Assembly: GCA_025350865.1 (NCBI GenBank)
Contig: JANXWZ010000238.1
Span: 1-64,000 of the forward strand
Length of the DNA: 64,000 nucleotides
From: Rhodanobacteraceae bacterium
GTDB lineage: Bacteria > Acidobacteriota > Terriglobia > Terriglobales > Acidobacteriaceae
Direction: 5' to 3'
The translations under genes were made by a program, and so were the position numbers. This document shows positions 7,980 to 17,481 of the stretch, in pieces. Numbering within the stretch: position 1 is the first letter of the stretch; every line of letters begins with the position of its first letter. Below the pieces are notes generated by a model. It made no database searches. It was not told where the DNA came from and saw only the letters and a list, made by a program, of their open reading frames with translations.

Positions 7980-8585
7980 TCAGGAGTATTTCCGCAGGAT
8001 CCCGAGAACCTTGCCCTGGATCGTGACGTTGGCGGCGGGCGCGTAAATGGGCGCCATCTCTGCGTTCGAAGGCTGAAGGCGAATCATGCTGCCCTCGCGG
8101 TAGAAGCGTTTGAGGGTCGCGTCGGCTCCGTCGATCAGGGCGACCACGATCTCGCCTTCGCGGGCAGTACGGGTCCTTTCCACTAGCACGTAATCTCCGG
8201 AAACGATGTGCTCGTCGCGCATGGAGTCGCCGCGGACCTCCAAGGCGAAAACCTCGCGGTTGCCGATGATGTCTCCGAGCGAGATGGATTCGGCCGTCTC
8301 AATTGCCTCGACGGGTTGGCCGGCGGCGATGCGTCCGAGGAGCGGTAGACGCTCGAAACCTTTCTTGTTGGTACGCGGCGGGAGCACATCGATGGACCGA
8401 CTGCGGTTGTGCGCACGCTGCAGCAGGCCTTTGTTCTGGAGATTGGTGATGTGCTTGTGGACGGTTGCAAGGGAGTTGAGGCCCAGACCGGATGCAATCT
8501 CCTCATAGGAAGGGGAGTATCCGTTCTTAGTGGTGAAGCCGGAGAGGAAGTCGATTACTTCTTTTTGCCGCCGGGTGATAGCCAT
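7980..8585 (-). CDS. lexA: SOS transcriptional repressor LexA
   Basis: The 201-residue protein has the N-terminal winged helix (QKEVIDFLSGFTTKNGYSPS, then EEIASGLGLNSLATVHKHI) and the S24 peptidase domain. The self-cleavage site is A88-G89 in RIAAGQP. The catalytic serine is S121 in RGDSMRDEHI and the general-base lysine is K159 in ATLKRF. RecA filaments should trigger cleavage and de-repress SOS genes. The operator sequence used here is not evident; the upstream region holds the repeated hexamer GCGAAT but no clean palindrome that I would call a box. Confidence 0.97.
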   Translation of the reverse strand: MAITRRQKEVIDFLSGFTTKNGYSPSYEEIASGLGLNSLATVHKHITNLQNKGLLQRAHNRSRSIDVLPPRTNKKGFERLPLLGRIAAGQPVEAIETAESISLGDIIGNREVFALEVRGDSMRDEHIVSGDYVLVERTRTAREGEIVVALIDGADATLKRFYREGSMIRLQPSNAEMAPIYAPAANVTIQGKVLGILRKYS

Positions 8586-8898: not shown

Positions 8899-9681
8899 AT
8901 GCGCGTTTTGATCGTGGAAGACGATGTTGCACTGGGCCTGTTTCTCGCCAAGGGTTTGAAGTTGGAGGGCCACGAAGTTGAGCTGGTGACGGATGGACAA
9001 ACCGGATTGCAGAAGGCGCTGGCCAGTCGGCCAGACCTGATGGTTCTCGACCTCGGACTACCGCAGAAGGATGGAATGCAGGTGCTGGAAGAGATGCAGG
9101 GCCATCTCGCTGAGACCTCGGTGCTGGTGCTCACCGGGCGGAATCTGGTTCAGGAGAGGGTGCGCTGCCTGAACCTAGGTGCGGACGATTGTCTTCTGAA
9201 GCCGTTCAGCTTCAGCGAACTTATCGCACGCTGCAGGGGGCTGCTGCGGCGTCGGATGCAGTACGCCGACCCGGTGTTGCGGGTGGGTGGAGTGGAATTG
9301 AACCGCATGGACCGGTCCGTGGCTCGCGACGGGCGGGCGGTCGAACTGACGGCCAAGGAGTTTGCGCTGCTCGAGTACCTGATGCAGGCGCGGGGCAAGA
9401 CGTGTCTGCGGAGTGATCTGCTTCGCGACGTATGGCAGGCTTCGCCGTCAGCCGGAACAAATGTAGTGGATGTGTATGTCAATTACCTGCGCAAGAAGCT
9501 GGGTGCGGCGCGGTATGGTGCGTCGGAGACGACGGCAAATGATCGCGTGATTGAAACGGTGCGCGGGGTTGGGTACATGATGTCGAAAGAGGGGATGGAT
9601 TCAGGAGTGTCGAAGCTGGTGGCGCGGACTCCATATCTTGACGGCGTGGCATGGACCGAGGGGAGGCAGGCCAGTGCATAA
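8899..9681 (+). CDS. OmpR/PhoB-type response regulator
   Basis: The receiver domain spans roughly residues 1-115 with the acidic pair in LIVEDDV, the phosphoacceptor D51 in MVLDLGLP and the switch lysine K101 in LLKPFS. A winged-helix Trans_Reg_C domain follows at about 125-225 (VELTAKEFALLEYLMQARGK, VVDVYVNYLRKKLG, RGVGYMM). About 35 residues extend past the DNA-binding domain with no recognisable motif. No full histidine kinase is adjacent; the next gene, overlapping its stop, encodes only a phosphoacceptor helix domain. It is likely a DNA-binding transcription factor, with targets unknown. Confidence 0.93.
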   Translation: MRVLIVEDDVALGLFLAKGLKLEGHEVELVTDGQTGLQKALASRPDLMVLDLGLPQKDGMQVLEEMQGHLAETSVLVLTGRNLVQERVRCLNLGADDCLLKPFSFSELIARCRGLLRRRMQYADPVLRVGGVELNRMDRSVARDGRAVELTAKEFALLEYLMQARGKTCLRSDLLRDVWQASPSAGTNVVDVYVNYLRKKLGAARYGASETTANDRVIETVRGVGYMMSKEGMDSGVSKLVARTPYLDGVAWTEGRQASA

Positions 9682-9919
9682 GACGGGAGCGATGGCCGAG
9701 ACGGACCTTGCGAGCTGGATGCGGACCGCGATCCATGACCTGTGTCAGCCGATGACGGCGTTGGAGTGTGGGCTGTTTATCGGGACCATGAGTCCGGACG
9801 GCGTCCGCAAGCCAACGGCGGAAGATTTGACGGTGACGATCATCGAGGCATTGGAGCAATGCGGGCGAGTGTCGGCGCAGCTGAAGGCAATGCAGGCGCG
9901 GTTACAAACGGAGTTCTAA
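9674..9919 (+). CDS. stand-alone histidine-kinase DHp (HisKA-like) domain protein
   Basis: GTG 9674 has GGGAGG seven bases upstream (9661-9666) and overlaps the response-regulator stop, so it is translationally coupled; ATG 9692 is an alternative. The 81-residue protein contains AIHDLCQPMTALECGL, which matches the H-box of histidine kinases (H21 would be the phosphoacceptor), followed by a second helix (TIIEALEQCGRVSAQLKAMQ) as in a DHp hairpin. There is no sensor region and no HATPase domain: the gene simply stops, and the sequence after it does not continue the frame. It could be a phosphotransfer protein or a dimerisation partner for a kinase encoded elsewhere. Confidence 0.7.
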   Translation: MHKTGAMAETDLASWMRTAIHDLCQPMTALECGLFIGTMSPDGVRKPTAEDLTVTIIEALEQCGRVSAQLKAMQARLQTEF

Positions 9920-9945
9920 CGATTCGGTAAGTCAGGGTGATTGGA

Positions 9946-11220
9946 ATGAGTGCAGCGCAAAGTTGGCGGATGGATCGAGGGTCGAGTCAGGCAATGCTTG
10001 CGATCGGCGAACCGGTACGGGCGGTTGCGGCTCGTGTGGTTGTGCTGGTGACGTCGGACAAGGCACTGCAACACCGTCTTCAGGAGGGCCTGGTGCAGCT
10101 GCGGTGGGCAGTCAGGGCCGCGAACGGCGGTGCCGAGGCGATGTCGATGATTGAGGTGGAGCAGCCGGAAGCGATGATTGTGGACGGCTGGCTGCCGGAC
10201 CTGGAAGTAGGCGAATTTGCGCAATATCTTGAGCATCATTATCCGGCGATGGACCTGCTTCGCGTTGACGGGACGGCATCGACGGGCAAGGCGCGCAGTC
10301 CGCGGCGGAATGAATTGCTGCACGTGATCCGGCTGGCGCAGGAGTTTGCTCCGGAGGAGCGGTTGCAGATGGCCGATAGCGTTCCGCTGACGGCTCCGGC
10401 GCTGTTTCGGGAGGAGGTGCCGGCTAACCTGCGGGTGATGCGGACGCCGGGGGTGGCGTTGCCGGAGTTGGTGGGCGAGACCGCAGCCATGCTGGAGCTG
10501 GCAAGGATGATCCGGCTGGTCGCGCCGCGCACGGCGACGGTGTTGATCGAGGGCGAGACTGGAACGGGCAAGGAGGTCGTCGCCAAGGCGCTGCATCGTC
10601 TGAGTTCGCGCGCGGGAAAGCCGTTCGTGGTGCTGAACTGCGCGGCGATTCCGGAGTCGCTGCTAGAGGCGGAGCTGTTTGGGCACACGCGCGGCGCCTT
10701 TACCGGGGCGGTAACGTCGCGGACGGGGCGGATTGAGGCGGCGCATGGCGGGACACTGTTTCTGGACGAGATCGGCGAGATGCCATTGGCGCTGCAGGCG
10801 AAGATGTTGCGGTTTTTAGAGTGCGGCGAGCTACAGAAGGTAGGCGAGAACGAGTCGGTGCGGGTGGATGTTCGGGTGATCGCAGCGACGCATCAGGAAC
10901 TGGAGCGGCGAGCCGAGGAGAAGACGTTTCGGCTGGATCTTTACCATCGGCTTGCGGTGTTTCCGCTTGGGGTTCCGGCGCTGCGGGAGCGGATGGAAGA
11001 TCTGCCGCTGCTGGTTCATTTCTTTCTGGAACAGATGGGTCGAGACGCTCCGCGGAAGGGGATTTCGGACGCCGCGATGGCGAAGCTGGCGGAATACAAC
11101 TGGCCGGGCAATGTGCGGGAGTTGATGCATGTGCTGGAGCGGGGGGCGATCCTGGCGGAGGATCGGGCGGTGATTCGGGAGGACGATGTTCGGCTGAGGG
11201 TGGGGCGGCGGCGGGGGTAA
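9946..11220 (+). CDS. sigma-54-dependent activator lacking a DNA-binding domain
   Basis: The 424-residue protein begins with a degenerate receiver (VVLVTSDKALQ instead of an acidic triad, but a possible phosphoacceptor Asp in MIVDGWLPD). The AAA+ domain is complete: Walker A GETGTGKE, the sigma-54-contacting GAFTGA loop, Walker B TLFLDEIGEMP, and the sensor/arginine region VIAATHQEL and LYHRL. After NWPGNVRELMHVLERGAILA it ends at RVGRRRG, so the C-terminal Fis-type helix-turn-helix is missing. Position directly before flgB suggests flagellar control, comparable to the HTH-less FlgR of Helicobacter pylori (established knowledge). Confidence 0.9.
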   Translation: MSAAQSWRMDRGSSQAMLAIGEPVRAVAARVVVLVTSDKALQHRLQEGLVQLRWAVRAANGGAEAMSMIEVEQPEAMIVDGWLPDLEVGEFAQYLEHHYPAMDLLRVDGTASTGKARSPRRNELLHVIRLAQEFAPEERLQMADSVPLTAPALFREEVPANLRVMRTPGVALPELVGETAAMLELARMIRLVAPRTATVLIEGETGTGKEVVAKALHRLSSRAGKPFVVLNCAAIPESLLEAELFGHTRGAFTGAVTSRTGRIEAAHGGTLFLDEIGEMPLALQAKMLRFLECGELQKVGENESVRVDVRVIAATHQELERRAEEKTFRLDLYHRLAVFPLGVPALRERMEDLPLLVHFFLEQMGRDAPRKGISDAAMAKLAEYNWPGNVRELMHVLERGAILAEDRAVIREDDVRLRVGRRRG

Positions 11221-11357: not shown

Positions 11358-11738
11358 ATGCAGATTTCTACACCGATCGGCGATGCGCTGGGGAAGTATC
11401 TGGATTTGACGGCGGATCAGATGAAGTTGACGGCCGGGAATATGGCCAACGTCGATACGCCTGGGTATAAGACGCAGGGGTTCGACTTTGAGGCGGAGTT
11501 CGCGAGAGCCGTGGCCGGTCCCACTCATCGCGATGGGACTGCGATGAATGGGGCACAGTTTGGGCCGAGGATTGATGAGGTGGATGGGCTGGTGGCGCGG
11601 CCGGATGGGAATACGGTTTCGCTGGATCGAGAGAGTTTGCAGCTGGCCAAGTCGCAGCTGCAGTTTCGGACCGGGGTGGCGCTGCTGAAGAGCGAGTATG
11701 CCCGGATGATGAGCGCGATCCATGCGGAGGCGAAATGA
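11358..11738 (+). CDS. flgB: flagellar basal-body rod protein FlgB
   Basis: The ATG at 11358 has GGAGGA at 11345-11350 at good distance; the in-frame start at 11343 would overlap that site. The 126-residue protein shows the rod signature LTAGNMANVDTPGYKTQGFDF near the N-terminus and the coiled C-terminal helix LQFRTGVALLKSEYARMM. FlgB is the proximal rod component on the MS-ring. It opens a long co-directional operon; its stop overlaps flgC in ATGA. Confidence 0.96.
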   Translation: MQISTPIGDALGKYLDLTADQMKLTAGNMANVDTPGYKTQGFDFEAEFARAVAGPTHRDGTAMNGAQFGPRIDEVDGLVARPDGNTVSLDRESLQLAKSQLQFRTGVALLKSEYARMMSAIHAEAK

Positions 11739-12175
11739 ACCTCTTCGGGATGATGGATATCAGCGGGTCGGCGCTGAAGGCGGAGCGGGTTCGGGCTGAG
11801 GTGGTCGCGTCGAATATGGCGAACTCGGAGACTACCCGTACCGCGGATGGCGGACCGTACCGGCGGCACCACGTGGTGTTTTCGGCGATGGATTCAAACA
11901 GCTTTGGGGCTTCTTTGCTGGGGCATGCGGCCCGCGATGTGCCTCGCGGTGGCGTGGATGTCACAGGTGTAATTGAGGACCAGGGGGCACCGCTGATGCG
12001 GTTCGATCCGCAGCATCCGGATGCGGGGCCGGATGGCTATGTGGCTTATCCGGATATCAATCCGCTGACGGAGATGGTGGATTTGATGGGGGCTACCCGG
12101 AGTTATGGGCTGAACGCTTCGGCGGTGCAGGCGGAGAAGGGGATGCTGGCGAATTCTTTGGAGATTCTGAAGTAA
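11735..12175 (+). CDS. flgC: flagellar basal-body rod protein FlgC
   Basis: This 146-residue rod protein starts in an ATGA overlap with flgB. The N-terminal MDISGSALKAERVRAEVVASN and NSETTR replace the usual NIANANTT rod motif in slightly diverged form. The C-terminal YPDINPLTEMVDLMGATRSY, then EKGMLANSLEILK, is the standard FlgC ending. It stacks with FlgB, FlgF and FlgG to form the rod; flgF and flgG are not in this window. Confidence 0.96.
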   Translation: MNLFGMMDISGSALKAERVRAEVVASNMANSETTRTADGGPYRRHHVVFSAMDSNSFGASLLGHAARDVPRGGVDVTGVIEDQGAPLMRFDPQHPDAGPDGYVAYPDINPLTEMVDLMGATRSYGLNASAVQAEKGMLANSLEILK

Positions 12176-12303
12176 CGGCGAGAGCAACCGCAGATCCCTT
12201 GACGGTGACCGCAGTTTAGAACGGTCCGCTTCATTGGAGAATCAGACCCTAACGGGATGACAAACAAGGGTGCAACGGCACGGTGTTGCGGGAGGAGGTT
12301 TCG

Positions 12304-12597
12304 ATGGTTGGAGTCGGACAGGTTGGGGCGGCCGTTGCTGGGATAGCAGGGAATCCAAAGGCGCAGGGGCAGGCGAGTACGCCTTTTGGCGGGATGTTTC
12401 AATCGCTGGTCGGGCAGACGACGGCGCTGGATCAACAGGCGCAGACGGCGGTGACAGGTTTGCTGAACGGATCGGGTGTTGAGGTCCACGAGGCGATGAT
12501 CGCAACGCAGAAAGCGGACATGGCGTTCGAACTGGCGCTCCAGGTGAGGAACAAGGCGGTTGGAGCGTATCAGCAGATGATGGCGATGCAGTTCTAA
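12304..12597 (+). CDS. fliE: flagellar hook-basal body complex protein FliE
   Basis: The chosen ATG at 12304 follows GGGAGGAGG, giving 97 residues; the longer in-frame start at 12283 would place the ribosome-binding site inside the gene. The conserved C-terminal half is visible (VEVHEAMIATQKADMAFELA, then LQVRNKAVGAYQQMMAMQF). FliE links the MS-ring to the rod and is exported early by the flagellar type III apparatus. It follows flgC after 128 bases that hold no gene. Confidence 0.95.
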   Translation: MVGVGQVGAAVAGIAGNPKAQGQASTPFGGMFQSLVGQTTALDQQAQTAVTGLLNGSGVEVHEAMIATQKADMAFELALQVRNKAVGAYQQMMAMQF

Positions 12598-12637
12598 AGG
12601 TAGGGATCAGGGCCAGGGGCTCAGGGCTCAGGAGTTG

Positions 12638-14404
12638 ATGCGGATGGCGGACGAAGTTGCAGGGGCGGGGCAGAAGGCGCTGGCTGTAGTGGCGCAGGCT
12701 CGTGGACGGTTTGCGGCGATGCCCGCGCAGCGCCGGACTTGGTTGATGGGTGGTGGGGTGGCGCTGCTGGCGGCGGTTGCGGCGATGGTCTGGTATGCCG
12801 GACGGCCGGATTATCGCATACTGTATACAGGCTTGGATGGCAAAGACACCCAGCAGGTGGCGCAGGAGCTGGGGGCGGCCGGGATTCCGTTTGAGATGAC
12901 GGCGGATGGTAGCGGCGTGCAGGTGCCGGCCGAGTCGCTCGACAAGGCACGGATGGAGGTGGCGGCCAAGGGGATGCCGCAGAGCGGGCGGCTGGGCTTT
13001 GAGCTGTTCGACAAGCCGAATTGGGTGGGAAGCGAATTTGACGAGAGAGTGAACTACCAGCGCGCCCTGGAGGGTGAGCTTGAGCACACTATTGGGACGC
13101 TAGGAGTAGTCAGGTCGGCACGGGTCCATCTGGCGCTGCCGCAGGCGAGCTTGTTTACCAGCGAACAGAAGGTGGCGAAGGCGAGCGTGGTGTTGAAGCT
13201 GAAGCGCGCCACGCTGGATACGGAACAGACGGAGGCGATCCGCAACCTGGTGGCGGGTGCGGTGGAGAATCTGAATCCGGCGCAGGTAACCCTGGTGGAT
13301 GCGGATGGCCGGGTGAATCTACAGGCCAAGGGGCGCGGGGCGGGTGCCGCTGACGAAGAGCGCACCATGGAAAGCCGGCTGGTGGCGATGTTGGAACCGC
13401 TGGCAGGTTTGGGCAATGTGCGCGCGACGGTGAACATCAGCTATGCCGAAGGCACGGAGGAGCATACGGATGAGGTGTACGATCCGGCCCAGACGGCGAC
13501 GTTGAGTTCGCAGAAGACAGAGCAAATGAATGGCGGCGCGAGCGGAGGAGCCGGAGGCTCGCAGTCGGCTTCGGGAGTTCCGGGGACGGCGAGCAATACC
13601 CCGGCTGCAGCGGTACCTGGCGCGGTGCAGGGCAGCGCAAAGGCCGCCGCACCCGGGACACCGCCACTGCTACAGACTGCGACGAAGGAAGCGCTTCCGG
13701 TGTTTCCACGCAATGGAGGCGGAGGGCAGGGCATGAAGGAGGAGAGCGGGACCTTTGCGGTGTCTCGTCACCTGACTCACACCGAGCAGGGACCAGGGCA
13801 GGTGCGGCGGGTAACGGCTGCGGTGGTGGTGAACGACCGCATGTCGCAGGAGGGCGCGGCGAAGGCTCTGAAGACAGTGTGGAAGCCGAGGACCAGCGAT
13901 GAGATGCATCGCCTGGAGCAACTGGCGCGGGCCGCGGTGGGGTTCGATGAGGGGCGTGGGGACCAGGTGGTGATGGAGAATGTGAGCTTCAGCTCGAATG
14001 CGCCGGAGATCGAAGCGGCCGGCGTCGACAAGGTAATGGAGCAGGCGAAGGGCCTGCTGGGAACGCAGCCGGCAGTGCTTAAGACCGGTGTGACGGCGAT
14101 GCTTGGCGTGATGCTGGTGATGCTGGTGCTCAGGCCGGTCGCGGGGCAGATGGTCGCGACGATGAAGGAGCCGATGCTGCTCGGCGACGGGGGTAGCCAT
14201 GGAATGAGAGAACGCGGGGTGGCGGGGCGGTCTGAGTTGACTCCTGGTAGCGCAGGGGAGCTGGGGCAGCCGGGGCAGCCTGGTGCGGCGCAGCTCGAGG
14301 AAGGGCCATCGCTGATGGATCAAATTTCGGATCACATAAGGCGCGAGCCGACGCACAGCACGCGGCTGCTGGAGACCTGGATTTCAGAAGAAGGGAATAA
14401 CTAA
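12638..14404 (+). CDS. fliF: flagellar MS-ring protein FliF
   Basis: The 588-residue inner-membrane protein forms the MS-ring. Transmembrane helix 1 is at about residues 35-54 (WLMGGGVALLAAVAAMVWYA) and helix 2 at about 482-504. Between them are the YscJ/FliF ring-building domains (LYTGLDGKDTQQVAQEL, KPNWVGSEFDERVNYQRALE, VRSARVHLALP) and a Gly/Ala/Ser-rich linker near residues 295-345. The C-terminal tail LETWISEEGNN is the FliG-binding end. ATG 12638 or 12644 are both possible after AGGAG. The stop overlaps fliG by one base. Confidence 0.97.
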   Translation: MRMADEVAGAGQKALAVVAQARGRFAAMPAQRRTWLMGGGVALLAAVAAMVWYAGRPDYRILYTGLDGKDTQQVAQELGAAGIPFEMTADGSGVQVPAESLDKARMEVAAKGMPQSGRLGFELFDKPNWVGSEFDERVNYQRALEGELEHTIGTLGVVRSARVHLALPQASLFTSEQKVAKASVVLKLKRATLDTEQTEAIRNLVAGAVENLNPAQVTLVDADGRVNLQAKGRGAGAADEERTMESRLVAMLEPLAGLGNVRATVNISYAEGTEEHTDEVYDPAQTATLSSQKTEQMNGGASGGAGGSQSASGVPGTASNTPAAAVPGAVQGSAKAAAPGTPPLLQTATKEALPVFPRNGGGGQGMKEESGTFAVSRHLTHTEQGPGQVRRVTAAVVVNDRMSQEGAAKALKTVWKPRTSDEMHRLEQLARAAVGFDEGRGDQVVMENVSFSSNAPEIEAAGVDKVMEQAKGLLGTQPAVLKTGVTAMLGVMLVMLVLRPVAGQMVATMKEPMLLGDGGSHGMRERGVAGRSELTPGSAGELGQPGQPGAAQLEEGPSLMDQISDHIRREPTHSTRLLETWISEEGNN

Positions 14405-15459
14405 TGGCAGCGATCGATCGGAATTCGGGATTGCGGTACCGCGAAAAGGAACGGGTGGTGATTCCGGGGATTCGCAAGGCCGCGATCCTGATTATGGCGA
14501 TGGGGGACGATATCGCACGATCCCTCTTTCAGAGTTTGAACGAGGCCGATGTCCAGCGCGTCGCCGACGAAATTTCCAACATGGGCGATGTGGGGAGCGA
14601 ACAGCTCGAAGAAGTGATGGCCGAGTTTTATGGCATGGTGAAGTCGCAGGGTTATATGGTTCGCGGTGGCCATGAGTATGCGACGCGCCTGTTGACCGAG
14701 GCCTTCGGCGCAGTCCGGGCGGATGAGCTGCTGGCGCAGGTGAATACGGTTCGCGAACGGACTACGGGCGACCTGGCGATGCTGCAGAAGATGGAGCCGC
14801 AACAGTTGAGCAAGTTTCTGGAGAACGAGCATCCGCAAACCGTGGCGCTGGTGCTGGCACACCTTGATTCCAAGAGAGGGTCAAGCGTGCTGATGCACTT
14901 GAACTCGCAGATGCGAGTGGAGGCGCTGGGGCGGCTGGCTGGCATGAGACAGTTCTCGCCGGAGATGGCGCAGAAGGTCGCGCTGGTGCTTCATCGGCGG
15001 ATGGATTCGCTGGGATCAACTGGACGCAAGAACTACGCGGGCTATAAGGCGGTTGCGGATCTGCTGAATCGCCTGGAGCAGGATATGTGCAAGGGAATTC
15101 TGGAGGAGATCGAGAAGAAGGAGCCGAAGACGGCCACTGATATTCGCAGCCTGATGTTTACCTTCGAAGACTTGCTGACAGTTCCGCAGCAGGGGATTCG
15201 GGAGCTGGTGGCAGCAGCGGACAAGAAGTTGCTGGCGATGGCGCTGAAGGGCGGCAAAGAAAACATCAGGGCACACCTGTTCAAGGCGATGAGCTCAAGA
15301 GCGGCGGAGATGATGCGCGACGACATGGAGGCCATGGGACCGGTTCGGGGCAAGGATGTGAGCGCAGCGCAGCAGGAGTTGCTCGCACTGGCTCAGAAGC
15401 TGGACAGCGAAGGCAAGATTCAACTGAAGCTGGATACCGATAATGACATCACTCTTTGA
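14404..15459 (+). CDS. fliG: flagellar motor switch protein FliG
   Basis: The 351-residue protein has the N-terminal FliF-binding part (RKAAILIMAMGDDIARSLF), the middle-domain motif NEHPQTVALVLAHL that contacts FliM, and the C-terminal torque helix region (LMFTFEDLLTVPQQGIREL, then LLAMALKGG and SSRAAEMMRDDMEAMG). It transmits force from the stator to the rotor. It overlaps fliF by one base and the start of fliH by 17, consistent with one transcript. Confidence 0.97.
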   Translation: MAAIDRNSGLRYREKERVVIPGIRKAAILIMAMGDDIARSLFQSLNEADVQRVADEISNMGDVGSEQLEEVMAEFYGMVKSQGYMVRGGHEYATRLLTEAFGAVRADELLAQVNTVRERTTGDLAMLQKMEPQQLSKFLENEHPQTVALVLAHLDSKRGSSVLMHLNSQMRVEALGRLAGMRQFSPEMAQKVALVLHRRMDSLGSTGRKNYAGYKAVADLLNRLEQDMCKGILEEIEKKEPKTATDIRSLMFTFEDLLTVPQQGIRELVAAADKKLLAMALKGGKENIRAHLFKAMSSRAAEMMRDDMEAMGPVRGKDVSAAQQELLALAQKLDSEGKIQLKLDTDNDITL

Positions 15460-16144
15460 TCTTGGCGAACTGCCGCGCGGAATGGAGCTTCCGGTGGACT
15501 TGATCTCGGCTGGAGAGCGGTCGGTTTCGACGCTGGAGTTTTTTGCGGTGGAAGAGGAACGGCACCGCGAGGAGCAGGAACGGCTGGCGCGTGAGAACGA
15601 GGACGTGCCTGAGTCGGCGGCAAGCATTCGGGCGCGGCAGACGCAGGCGATGGTGGATGCCGCACGAGCCGAGGGTGCGGCGATTGCGCGGGAGGAGTTC
15701 GAAGCGGAACTGCAGGAGAGGCTTGCCGTGGAGCGGCAGCGCGTGGAGCGGGTGGTCGCGGAGTTCGCAATGGATCGTCAACGATACTTCGCGGCAGCCG
15801 AGGCGCAGGTCGTCAAGCTGGCCATTGCCATTGCTCGAAAGGTTTTGCATCGGGAGGTTGCAGCGGACACGATGCATTTGACCGCGACGGTGCGGGCAGC
15901 GCTGGCCCGGGTGCACGATGGTAGCGCGACGGTGCTCAGGGTTCCTATGGACGTGCGCGACCAGTGGGAGGCGCTGTTCGCAGGCGAACGTCTGGAGCAA
16001 TTATCGGTAGTTGGTGACGAGCAGTTAGAAGCGGGCGAGTGTGTGCTCAAAACGGATATCGGGCGCGTTGAGCTTGGGGTGAACGTGCAGGTTGCGGAGA
16101 TTGAGCGCGGTTTTAGCGATCTGCTGCGGCGGGAAGGGGAGTAG
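15443..16144 (+). CDS. fliH: flagellar export assembly protein FliH
   Basis: The 233-residue protein starts inside the fliG end. It has an acidic, charged N-terminal third rich in E, R and Q (coiled-coil), then the conserved C-terminal domain with VVKLAIAIARKVLHREVAAD and the closing segment ECVLKTDIGRVELGVNVQVA. FliH is the peripheral stalk that tethers the FliI ATPase to the export gate and C-ring. The family is poorly conserved, but position and the C-terminal domain make the call secure. Confidence 0.92.
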   Translation: MTSLFDLGELPRGMELPVDLISAGERSVSTLEFFAVEEERHREEQERLARENEDVPESAASIRARQTQAMVDAARAEGAAIAREEFEAELQERLAVERQRVERVVAEFAMDRQRYFAAAEAQVVKLAIAIARKVLHREVAADTMHLTATVRAALARVHDGSATVLRVPMDVRDQWEALFAGERLEQLSVVGDEQLEAGECVLKTDIGRVELGVNVQVAEIERGFSDLLRREGE

Positions 16145-16149
16145 GGCCG

Positions 16150-17481
16150 ATGGGGAATGTGCGGGAGGGACTGGGATCGGCCGGGCTCGAGCCCTACTTT
16201 GCCACGCTGGAGACGCGGCCGGCGTGGAGGTGGGTTGGGCGGGTGGTGCAGGCGACGGGCCAGACGGTGGAGTCGGAGGGGCCGCTGTGCTCGGTGGGCG
16301 AGGGCTGCGAGGTGGTGGATGAAAACGGGCGGCGGCATGCTGCGGAGGTGATTGGCTTCCGGGGACCGAATGTGGTGTCGATGCCACTGCATGCGACGCA
16401 GGGAATCCAGTATGGCGACGGGGTGCAGGCGCTGGGGTCGATGCCGTCGATTGCCGTGGGCGAGCAGATGCAGGGACGGATAATGAATGCGCTTGGCGAG
16501 CCGCTGGATGGACTTCCTGCACCGAGGGTGAGAGCGATGTGGCCATTGGACGGAGCGGCTCCGAAGCCGTTGGAACGCGAGCCGATTCGCGATCCACTGC
16601 AGACTGGAGTGCGTGCGATCGACGGCATGCTGACGGTGGGGCGCGGGCAGAGGGTGGGTGTTTTTGGCGGGTCAGGCGTGGGTAAGAGCACGCTGATCGG
16701 GATGATGACGCGGAACACAGCGGCCGACCTGACAGTGGTTGGCCTGGTGGGTGAACGCGGCCGCGAAGTGCGGGAGTTTGTGGAGGATGCGCTTGGCGAG
16801 GAGGGATTGAAGCGGGCCGTGGTGCTGGTCTCGACCAGCGACCAGAGCCCGCTGCTGCGGATGCGGGCGGCGATGGCGGCGACGGCGGTGGCAGAGTTTC
16901 ATGCGGCTCGCGGAAAGCATGTGCTGCTGGTGCTGGACTCGCTGACGCGGTATGCGATGGCGGCTCGCGAGGTCGGGCTGGCTGCGGGCGAGCCGCCGGC
17001 AAGCAAGGGCTACACGCCGAGCGTGTTTGTGCGGCTGGCGCAGTTGGTGGAGCGAGCCGGCAACTTCAGGCAGGGCAGCATTACGGCGTTCTACACGGTG
17101 TTGATGGAGGGTGACGATCAGCAGGATCCGATTGCGGATGCGACGCGGTCGTTGCTGGACGGACATATCGTATTGTCGCGATCGCTGGCGGGGGCGGGTC
17201 ACTATCCGCCAATCGATGTTCTGGATTCTTTGAGCCGTCTTATGCCTGCAGTGGCGGAGCGTGGGCACATGGATCGGGCCTTGACTGTGCGACGCCTGAT
17301 GGCGGCCTATGCGAAGAGCGAGGACCTGATCCGTATTGGCGCTTACAAGGCGGGGAACGATGAGGAGCTCGATCGTGCGTTGTCGGCAATGGGTGATATC
17401 AGGCAATTTCTGGAGCAGCGGCGCGAGGAACGAGTGACGCTGCGCGACACCGTGACACACCTGTACGGGTTGGCGATCTGA
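16150..17481 (+). CDS. fliI: flagellum-specific ATPase FliI
   Basis: The 443-residue ATPase energises and orders substrate unfolding for flagellar type III export. Walker A is GGSGVGKST (about residues 174-182), Walker B lies in HVLLVLDSLTRYAMAAREV, with GEPPASKGYTPSVF and ADATRSLLDGHIVLSRSLA typical of F1-beta-like export ATPases. GGAGTAGGG precedes the ATG. Its TGA overlaps the ATG of fliJ by one base. Confidence 0.97.
   Translation: MGNVREGLGSAGLEPYFATLETRPAWRWVGRVVQATGQTVESEGPLCSVGEGCEVVDENGRRHAAEVIGFRGPNVVSMPLHATQGIQYGDGVQALGSMPSIAVGEQMQGRIMNALGEPLDGLPAPRVRAMWPLDGAAPKPLEREPIRDPLQTGVRAIDGMLTVGRGQRVGVFGGSGVGKSTLIGMMTRNTAADLTVVGLVGERGREVREFVEDALGEEGLKRAVVLVSTSDQSPLLRMRAAMAATAVAEFHAARGKHVLLVLDSLTRYAMAAREVGLAAGEPPASKGYTPSVFVRLAQLVERAGNFRQGSITAFYTVLMEGDDQQDPIADATRSLLDGHIVLSRSLAGAGHYPPIDVLDSLSRLMPAVAERGHMDRALTVRRLMAAYAKSEDLIRIGAYKAGNDEELDRALSAMGDIRQFLEQRREERVTLRDTVTHLYGLAI

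Follow-up and report, generated by a model that had tools for sequence, protein, structure and literature searches.

Split kinases are exemplified by the HK1-HK2-TcrA system of M. tuberculosis, in which a protein carrying the ATPase domain phosphorylates a separate acceptor protein in trans and the gene for the ATPase partner is adjacent. Spo0B of Bacillus has a C-terminal domain. ChpT of Caulobacter is described (PMC3433190) as showing no autophosphorylation and no bound ATP and as relaying phosphate via His33, and PhyT of Sphingomonas is presented (PMC5898713) as a degenerate kinase that passes phosphate between receivers. For HisKA proteins, PMC3510030 reports that the acidic residue directly after the histidine (+1) is required for kinase activity and that a Thr or Asn is required for phosphatase activity. 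Our literature search was confined to open-access sources; within them we found no description of a DHp-only or stand-alone DHp family, nor of any such family in the literature on degenerate-kinase phosphotransferases and split kinases, and nothing relevant on flagellar signalling in the Acidobacteria.

We describe here, from a 64,000-nucleotide stretch of DNA analysed as a whole (the window), an 81-aa protein that is a DHp hairpin without a sensor or ATPase domain. A first-pass annotation had proposed a minimal phosphotransfer module, and this remains the best reading of a conserved DHp-only protein with an invariant histidine: with slightly better than even confidence we regard it as a CA-free, stand-alone histidine phosphotransferase, derived from a kinase and serving an OmpR-type regulator. 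On the sequence comparisons set out below the gene is probably intact and its product a functioning carrier of phosphate.

The gene is much as it had first been drawn, an 81-aa ORF with its own Shine-Dalgarno sequence and a GTG start, overlapping the stop of the upstream regulator (Table 1). The ORF and the response-regulator stop (9681) share 8 nt, and 17 nt separate the DHp stop from the GTG of the sigma-54 activator gene; with only these 17 nt between them, a kinase gene split by a frameshift in the window is ruled out. ORFs of at least 70 aa number 80 in 16 kb here, many of them mutually overlapping, such that length alone is common by chance; a chance ORF is ruled out by the homologues, the invariant motif and dN/dS. 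A search of the window's genome returned no second copy, the sole other match having an E of 0.6.

Table 1. Features of the locus, in window positions.
Feature	Position	Strand	Basis
Divergent gene, which we take to be lexA-like	7980..8585	-	neighbourhood
OmpR/PhoB-type response regulator, intact receiver residues and Trans_reg_C	8899..9681	+	Pfam, receiver residues
Shine-Dalgarno GGGGAGG, 7 nt 5' of the DHp GTG	9660..9666	+	sequence
DHp-only protein, 81 aa, GTG start (GTG at 9674, stop codon ending at 9919)	9674..9919	+	window sequence, homologues, dN/dS
Helix 1 (predicted), residues 4-37 of the DHp protein	9683..9784	+	AlphaFold2
H-box AIHDLCQPMTALECGL with invariant His21 (codon 9734-9736)	9728..9775	+	sequence and alignment
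Helix 2 (predicted), residues 49-80 of the DHp protein	9818..9913	+	AlphaFold2
Sigma-54 activator (GTG 9937 or ATG 9946), truncated receiver with acceptor-type Asp, AAA+	9937..11220	+	Pfam, residues
Flagellar genes, presumably flgB, flgC, fliE, fliF, fliG, fliH, fliI	11358..17481	+	resemblance and order

The AlphaFold2 monomer consists of the two helices of Table 1, with a mean pLDDT of 84.4, and no sensor domain or CA (HATPase_c) domain with N, G1 and G2 boxes was found in the 81-aa ORF, so that the H-box, the second helix and the missing sensor and ATPase domains of the first description are borne out by sequence, Pfam and AlphaFold2. The ORF has no match in Pfam, HisKA (PF00512) included. 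When E values up to 10 are allowed, HisKA is matched by 30 of 51 members of the family, with a best value of 1.9e-7; the window protein is not one of the 30. Seven short forms run singly against HisKA gave five matches, all below the 26.9-bit cut-off, and two without a match. In NCBIfam the window protein drew only a hybrid-kinase match (E 0.083, far under its cut-off). An Hpt domain (PF01627) is ruled out, the window protein having no Hpt profile match; three Hpt matches lie elsewhere in its genome. A fold search with the 81-aa model ranked HK853 first (Z 9.6), with no E-value below 0.001, and designed and unrelated helical hairpins score like HK853. A structure search is weak for any helical hairpin; the firm link to a DHp domain comes from the long-form relatives described below.

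Homologues were found in 50 of 59 other genomes of the genus by single-sequence search (E up to 0.1), and in one further genome (G037) by profile search; H21, Q25, P26, L30, C32 and L34 are invariant in a 51-row alignment. The wider locus set comprises the window, 50 same-genus loci and 60 places chosen among the family matches listed, 111 in all, and its division into 81 short forms (the window included) and 30 long forms reflects this choice of places and not frequency. With E limited to 0.01, the DHp profile matches at least 191 of 300 family genomes; many of the less significant matches sit in large frames, from about 480 aa upwards, and are presumably ordinary kinases. Excluded from the set were L081, which has no H-box, and L083 and L084, weak matches from other families without the neighbours. 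L144 and L145 belong to a single genome and probably represent one gene seen at two contig ends, L140 begins at a contig edge and L189 has no regulator beside the DHp gene. Family members were retrieved by searching with the H-box itself, which biases the set towards rows that have one; within it His, Gln at +4 and Pro at +5 are kept in 111/111 loci, short and long together, and every locus has, at the level of sequence, a putative phospho-accepting His in an H-box and then Pro.

The short forms run to 53-83 aa from His to stop. The first-pass annotation had looked to conservation of short length, histidine and position among orthologues, and had named a variable H21 as the finding that would tell against it; the short length recurs across the 81 short loci, H21 is present at every short and long locus, and the sampled stretches of the same-genus loci contain the regulator in 49/50 and the sigma-54 gene also in 49/50. 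A start codon allowing the same 8-nt overlap is available at 29 of the 49 same-genus loci with a regulator stop. A further 48 loci come from genomes that carry a name; most duplicate records already sampled and are not independent of them. Of these, 47 are assigned to an Acidobacteria group and one is labelled just 'bacterium', 26 belong to Granulicella, Edaphobacter or Terriglobus, and 46 have the short form.

Selection was gauged in 15 close pairs. In 13 of these dN/dS is at most 0.33 (one of them without any amino-acid change), which by this measure is purifying selection; of the remaining two, one gives 0.81 and the other has saturated synonymous sites. Judged by its sequence record, the 81-aa DHp protein is a real gene, neither a chance ORF nor a decaying one. 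That it is the decaying remnant of a kinase gene we regard as barely credible: sister genera do have longer forms in the corresponding place, one close pair has the dN/dS of 0.81, and the short form L189, with neither regulator nor sigma-54 gene alongside, may be a genuine remnant, but the low ratios of the 13 pairs, the invariance of the motif and the steadily short length all speak against decay.

The long forms, from sister genera, measure 189-235 aa from His to stop. Comparison of the short and long profiles gave a probability of 99.2 over the DHp, the one long protein that was modelled is predicted to be a DHp with a kinase-type C-terminal domain (pLDDT 89.3), and at profile level the long-form family matches kinases along its full length. 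The ATP-binding motifs are largely gone: G1 is found in 0/30 and G2 in 0/30, the N-box in 3/30 by a strict pattern and 13/30 by a looser one, and Pfam HATPase_c in 6/30 at E up to 1. The control, 25 ORFs of the window's own genome, has G1 in 25, G2 in 19 and N in 15, though as these ORFs were picked for having one of the motifs only the contrast with the long forms counts. By motif, then, the long forms are pseudokinases. The first-pass annotation had also held that full-length kinases at the same locus would make the window gene a truncated pseudogene; longer orthologues do exist in the sister genera, but they lack G1 and G2 and are by motif pseudokinases, and the short form is conserved in its own right, so that this conclusion does not follow.

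Fifteen outgroup loci from other families of the class, hand-picked from matches with open frames of 227-375 aa (larger ordinary kinases being left out), all show the regulator immediately before a protein with a degenerate ATPase domain, with a G1-like pattern in 1/15, the only one among the 45 long-type loci (30 sister-genus and 15 outgroup), and G2 in 0/15. One of them, L264, partly keeps the N-box and lid region by eye and is a possible kinase/pseudokinase intermediate. No frame below 215 aa occurs among the matches outside the family in the 121-genome class sample, and in a phylum sample of 247 genomes a single genome outside the class matches, with a 342-aa frame. Weak matches outside the family were also seen in G072, G091 and G094 (E 0.007 to 0.09), with candidate frames of 61-118 aa, two of them with internal stops.

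Since the 15 outgroup loci carry the long form and the class sample has no frame below 215 aa outside the family, the simplest reading is that the long form is ancestral and the bare DHp derived, a history that would run from kinase to pseudokinase to DHp alone. On a tree of the regulators 3 changes suffice to explain the short and long states, where shuffling gives 25.7; with 114 rows the figure is again 3. L185 is a short form within a long clade, and L150 and L153 (support 81) are long forms within a short clade; from these placements the C-terminal ATPase-like domain was probably lost more than once, on a tree whose support is SH-aLRT only, with many weak branches and with long branches meeting at L185.

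The residues around the histidine offer some indication of what the protein may do. In the family the +1 residue is acidic in 47/81 short and 6/30 long forms, and is thus lost in 34/81 short forms, and the Gln found at +4 throughout means that the usual Thr/Asn of the phosphatase motif (H-E/D-x-x-T/N) is absent from every locus. Kinases of the window's own genome, where 14 of 30 loci have a readable H-box, show Glu at +1 in 13/14 and Asn or Thr at +4 in 14/14. With the His kept, the kinase residue often lost and the usual phosphatase residue always absent, the protein looks like a pure phosphate carrier. The window copy has Asp at +1, so the argument from loss of the kinase residue holds for the family and not for this copy. 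In FixL-type kinases the box reads HELNQP; since Gln stands at +4 there too, its presence does not exclude phosphatase activity.

This bears on a dedicated phosphatase or phosphate drain, whose DHp would bind the phosphorylated regulator and hasten its dephosphorylation either directly or via back-transfer to His21 and hydrolysis. HisKA kinases dephosphorylate their own regulator through the DHp, and the constant neighbour here is an intact OmpR-type receiver. PMC8971529 refers to an original report of phosphatase activity in the isolated EnvZ DHp, and the +1 acid is dispensable for phosphatase activity (PMC3510030). On the other side, no such activity was apparent for the EnvZ DHp by itself in mammalian cells (PMC8971529), and the CrdS substitution N375Q, which puts Gln exactly where our family has it (+4), abolished phosphatase activity to the point that none was measurable (PMC3510030). 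The strict conservation of the His, moreover, suits transfer better than direct hydrolysis, and we consider a phosphatase unlikely.

The Asp at +1 of the window copy is also what would be expected of one half of a split kinase, with a separate ATPase-domain protein encoded elsewhere phosphorylating His21 in trans, and of the 33 HATPase_c matches in the window's genome a few are in short frames. Against this, the loci are filled by homologous regulator, DHp and sigma-54 genes, in the window the interval from the regulator to flgB contains no ATPase gene, the relatives are already without ATP-binding motifs, and the +1 acid has gone from many short forms, as counted above; a split kinase is very improbable.

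The most constant neighbour of the DHp gene is the regulator, which was read beside it in 105/111 loci. Six loci are without such a reading: L038, L140 and L145 lie at or near contig edges, L150 has a regulator outside the distance rule, and at L076 and L189 a regulator was looked for in the sampled stretch and none was found. Around the long forms the regulator is present in 30/30 sampled stretches, within 1.1 kb upstream in 29. Its receiver keeps the acceptor Asp in 104/105 and the first acidic Asp in 104/105 (one gap each), Thr/Ser in 105/105 and Lys in 105/105. The gene taken to be lexA-like is beside the regulator in 38/50 same-genus, 22/30 other short and 0/30 long loci.

The sigma-54 gene lies within 1.4 kb in 94/111 loci (78/81 short, 16/30 long). 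The DHp gene had been placed between two response regulators, and a sigma-54 activator does follow it, but with a receiver that is truncated by eye and, in the window, matches Response_reg only weakly (E = 0.0061, under the cut-off). This receiver keeps its Asp in 92/94. No Fis-like helix-turn-helix was found in any of the 87 activators, of the 94, that are readable to the end, and each of the 87 ends no more than 49 aa from the GNVREL-type motif; as read from these sequences the activator of the window and its relatives has no recognisable DNA-binding domain. At six long loci (L159, L167, L169, L179, L186, L190) an NtrC-type regulator with a Fis domain stands between the sigma-54 activator and flgB. 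Among seven long-form flagellar loci read by eye this NtrC-type Fis regulator is present in six and a full kinase before the regulator is visible in four; at the remaining one, L192, flgB directly follows the sigma-54 gene, as in the window. At three long loci (L155, L168, L182) the place of the sigma-54 gene is taken, by eye, by a gene for a sigma-70-type (FliA/WhiG-like) sigma factor.

The three genes can part company. Genome G009 divides them between two loci, one with regulator and DHp but no sigma-54 gene (L073) and one with regulator and sigma-54 gene but no DHp (L230). Regulator and sigma-54 gene without an intervening DHp also occur at L228, L229, L231, L237 and L238, and from the operons without DHp (L228-L231, L237, L238) it follows that the regulator can persist without it. 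When DHp and regulator were compared for covariation in 76 short pairs (Neff 30), the expected interface held 4 of the 25 highest-ranked pairs where 2.0 would be expected; with all 105 pairs it held 2, the expectation being 1.8. The best pair with the sigma-54 receiver was no weaker than that with the regulator (z 5.9 against 5.3), and covariation thus does not favour the regulator over the sigma-54 receiver as partner.

From the gene overlap the DHp protein and the regulator would be expected in similar amounts, which would suit a sequestering or titrating subunit that binds the unphosphorylated regulator, or the DHp of a full kinase, and moves no phosphate. PMC5898713 records both that PhyT sequesters PhyR besides transferring phosphate and that its His also mattered for PhyR binding. 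Mere binding, however, would hardly account for the retention of His, Gln and Pro at 111/111 loci, and a purely sequestering role seems to us decidedly unlikely.

The dedication to flagellar control suggested in the first-pass annotation stands only in part. A flgB gene is present in the sampled stretch of 40/50 same-genus, 14/30 other short and 10/30 long loci, but in a FliF survey of 27 hand-picked genomes (E up to 1e-10), the counts of which are not frequencies, six short-form genomes (G193, G281, G310, G346, G364, G374) gave no match, and a strict flagellar role is not sustained. Three long-form genomes of the same survey (G235, G270, G280) also gave none, and in G235 and G270 a sigma-70-type (FliA/WhiG-like) gene is again seen by eye. 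Within the window's genus DHp and FliF tend to co-occur: FliF was found in 6/6 tested genomes with DHp, and of five without DHp (G016, G022, G025, G034, G051) it is absent in 4/5 and present in 1/5. A flgB fragment remains at L161 (G193) and L178 (G310) though FliF is unmatched, and flagella may therefore have been lost there recently. The short loci L161, L178 and L181 have a short flgB match and no fliF in the stretch; their flagellar genes may be decaying with the DHp kept.

As a stand-alone phosphotransferase the protein would work as follows. Two copies would pair through the hairpin to form a four-helix bundle, in which His21 would receive phosphoryl groups from receiver aspartates and pass them on to others. 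Its constant partner would be the overlapping OmpR-type regulator, and because the genes overlap the two are probably made in step by translational coupling. The loss of motifs in the relatives suggests an ancestor that was already without ATP binding, and hence without autophosphorylation, and by comparison the dead ATPase domain was later dropped wholly in the window's lineage; phosphate probably comes from a kinase or hybrid kinase whose gene lies elsewhere. More specifically, and this we put forward only as an improbable extension, the DHp might shuttle phosphate between the OmpR-type regulator, which has a DNA-binding domain, and the Asp in the truncated receiver of the sigma-54 activator, which has no DNA-binding domain; one phosphate pool would then set both DNA targeting and sigma-54 promoter opening. 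On this extension the window protein would be the smallest kinase-derived relay protein. ChpT and PhyT illustrate that a kinase can degenerate into a carrier of phosphate. In the present family, pseudokinases that retain a dead ATPase domain and proteins reduced to the DHp stand next to one type of regulator, and comparing them makes both the role of the dead domain and the smallest protein needed for His-Asp relay directly testable.

Several known systems share features with this locus. HisKA domains of the FixL/EnvZ type have the same hairpin and H-box, the box being HELNQP-like as in FixL, but sit in full kinases. Like HK1-HK2-TcrA, the locus has a phospho-acceptor protein apart from an ATPase domain and beside a regulator, but the window gene has no adjoining ATPase partner and its relatives are pseudokinases. 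In Spo0B, according to PMC3433190, the helical hairpins of two subunits form a four-helix bundle, the architecture proposed for the window protein; Spo0B differs in having a known place in its relay. PhyT resembles the window protein, in the account of PMC5898713, as a degenerate histidine kinase at the locus of its regulator that is both phosphotransferase and sequestering partner. PhyT is, however, anchored in the membrane, has a sensor domain as well as a degenerate ATPase domain and carries an HRxxN motif, where the window protein is one small domain. ChpT (PMC3433190) shares the DHp hairpin, a phospho-His with Pro at +5 (His33, Pro38) and a kinase-like build. A degenerate C-terminal domain is common to ChpT and the long-form relatives; ChpT keeps its Bergerat-type C-terminal domain, whereas the window protein has none, and phosphotransfer is known for ChpT and predicted here. 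The ChpT/Spo0B-type combination of a DHp with a degenerate C-terminal ATPase-like domain is accordingly present in the 30 long and 15 outgroup forms and absent from the window form, the nearest characterised cases to which are ChpT and PhyT, both with a degenerate ATPase-like domain.
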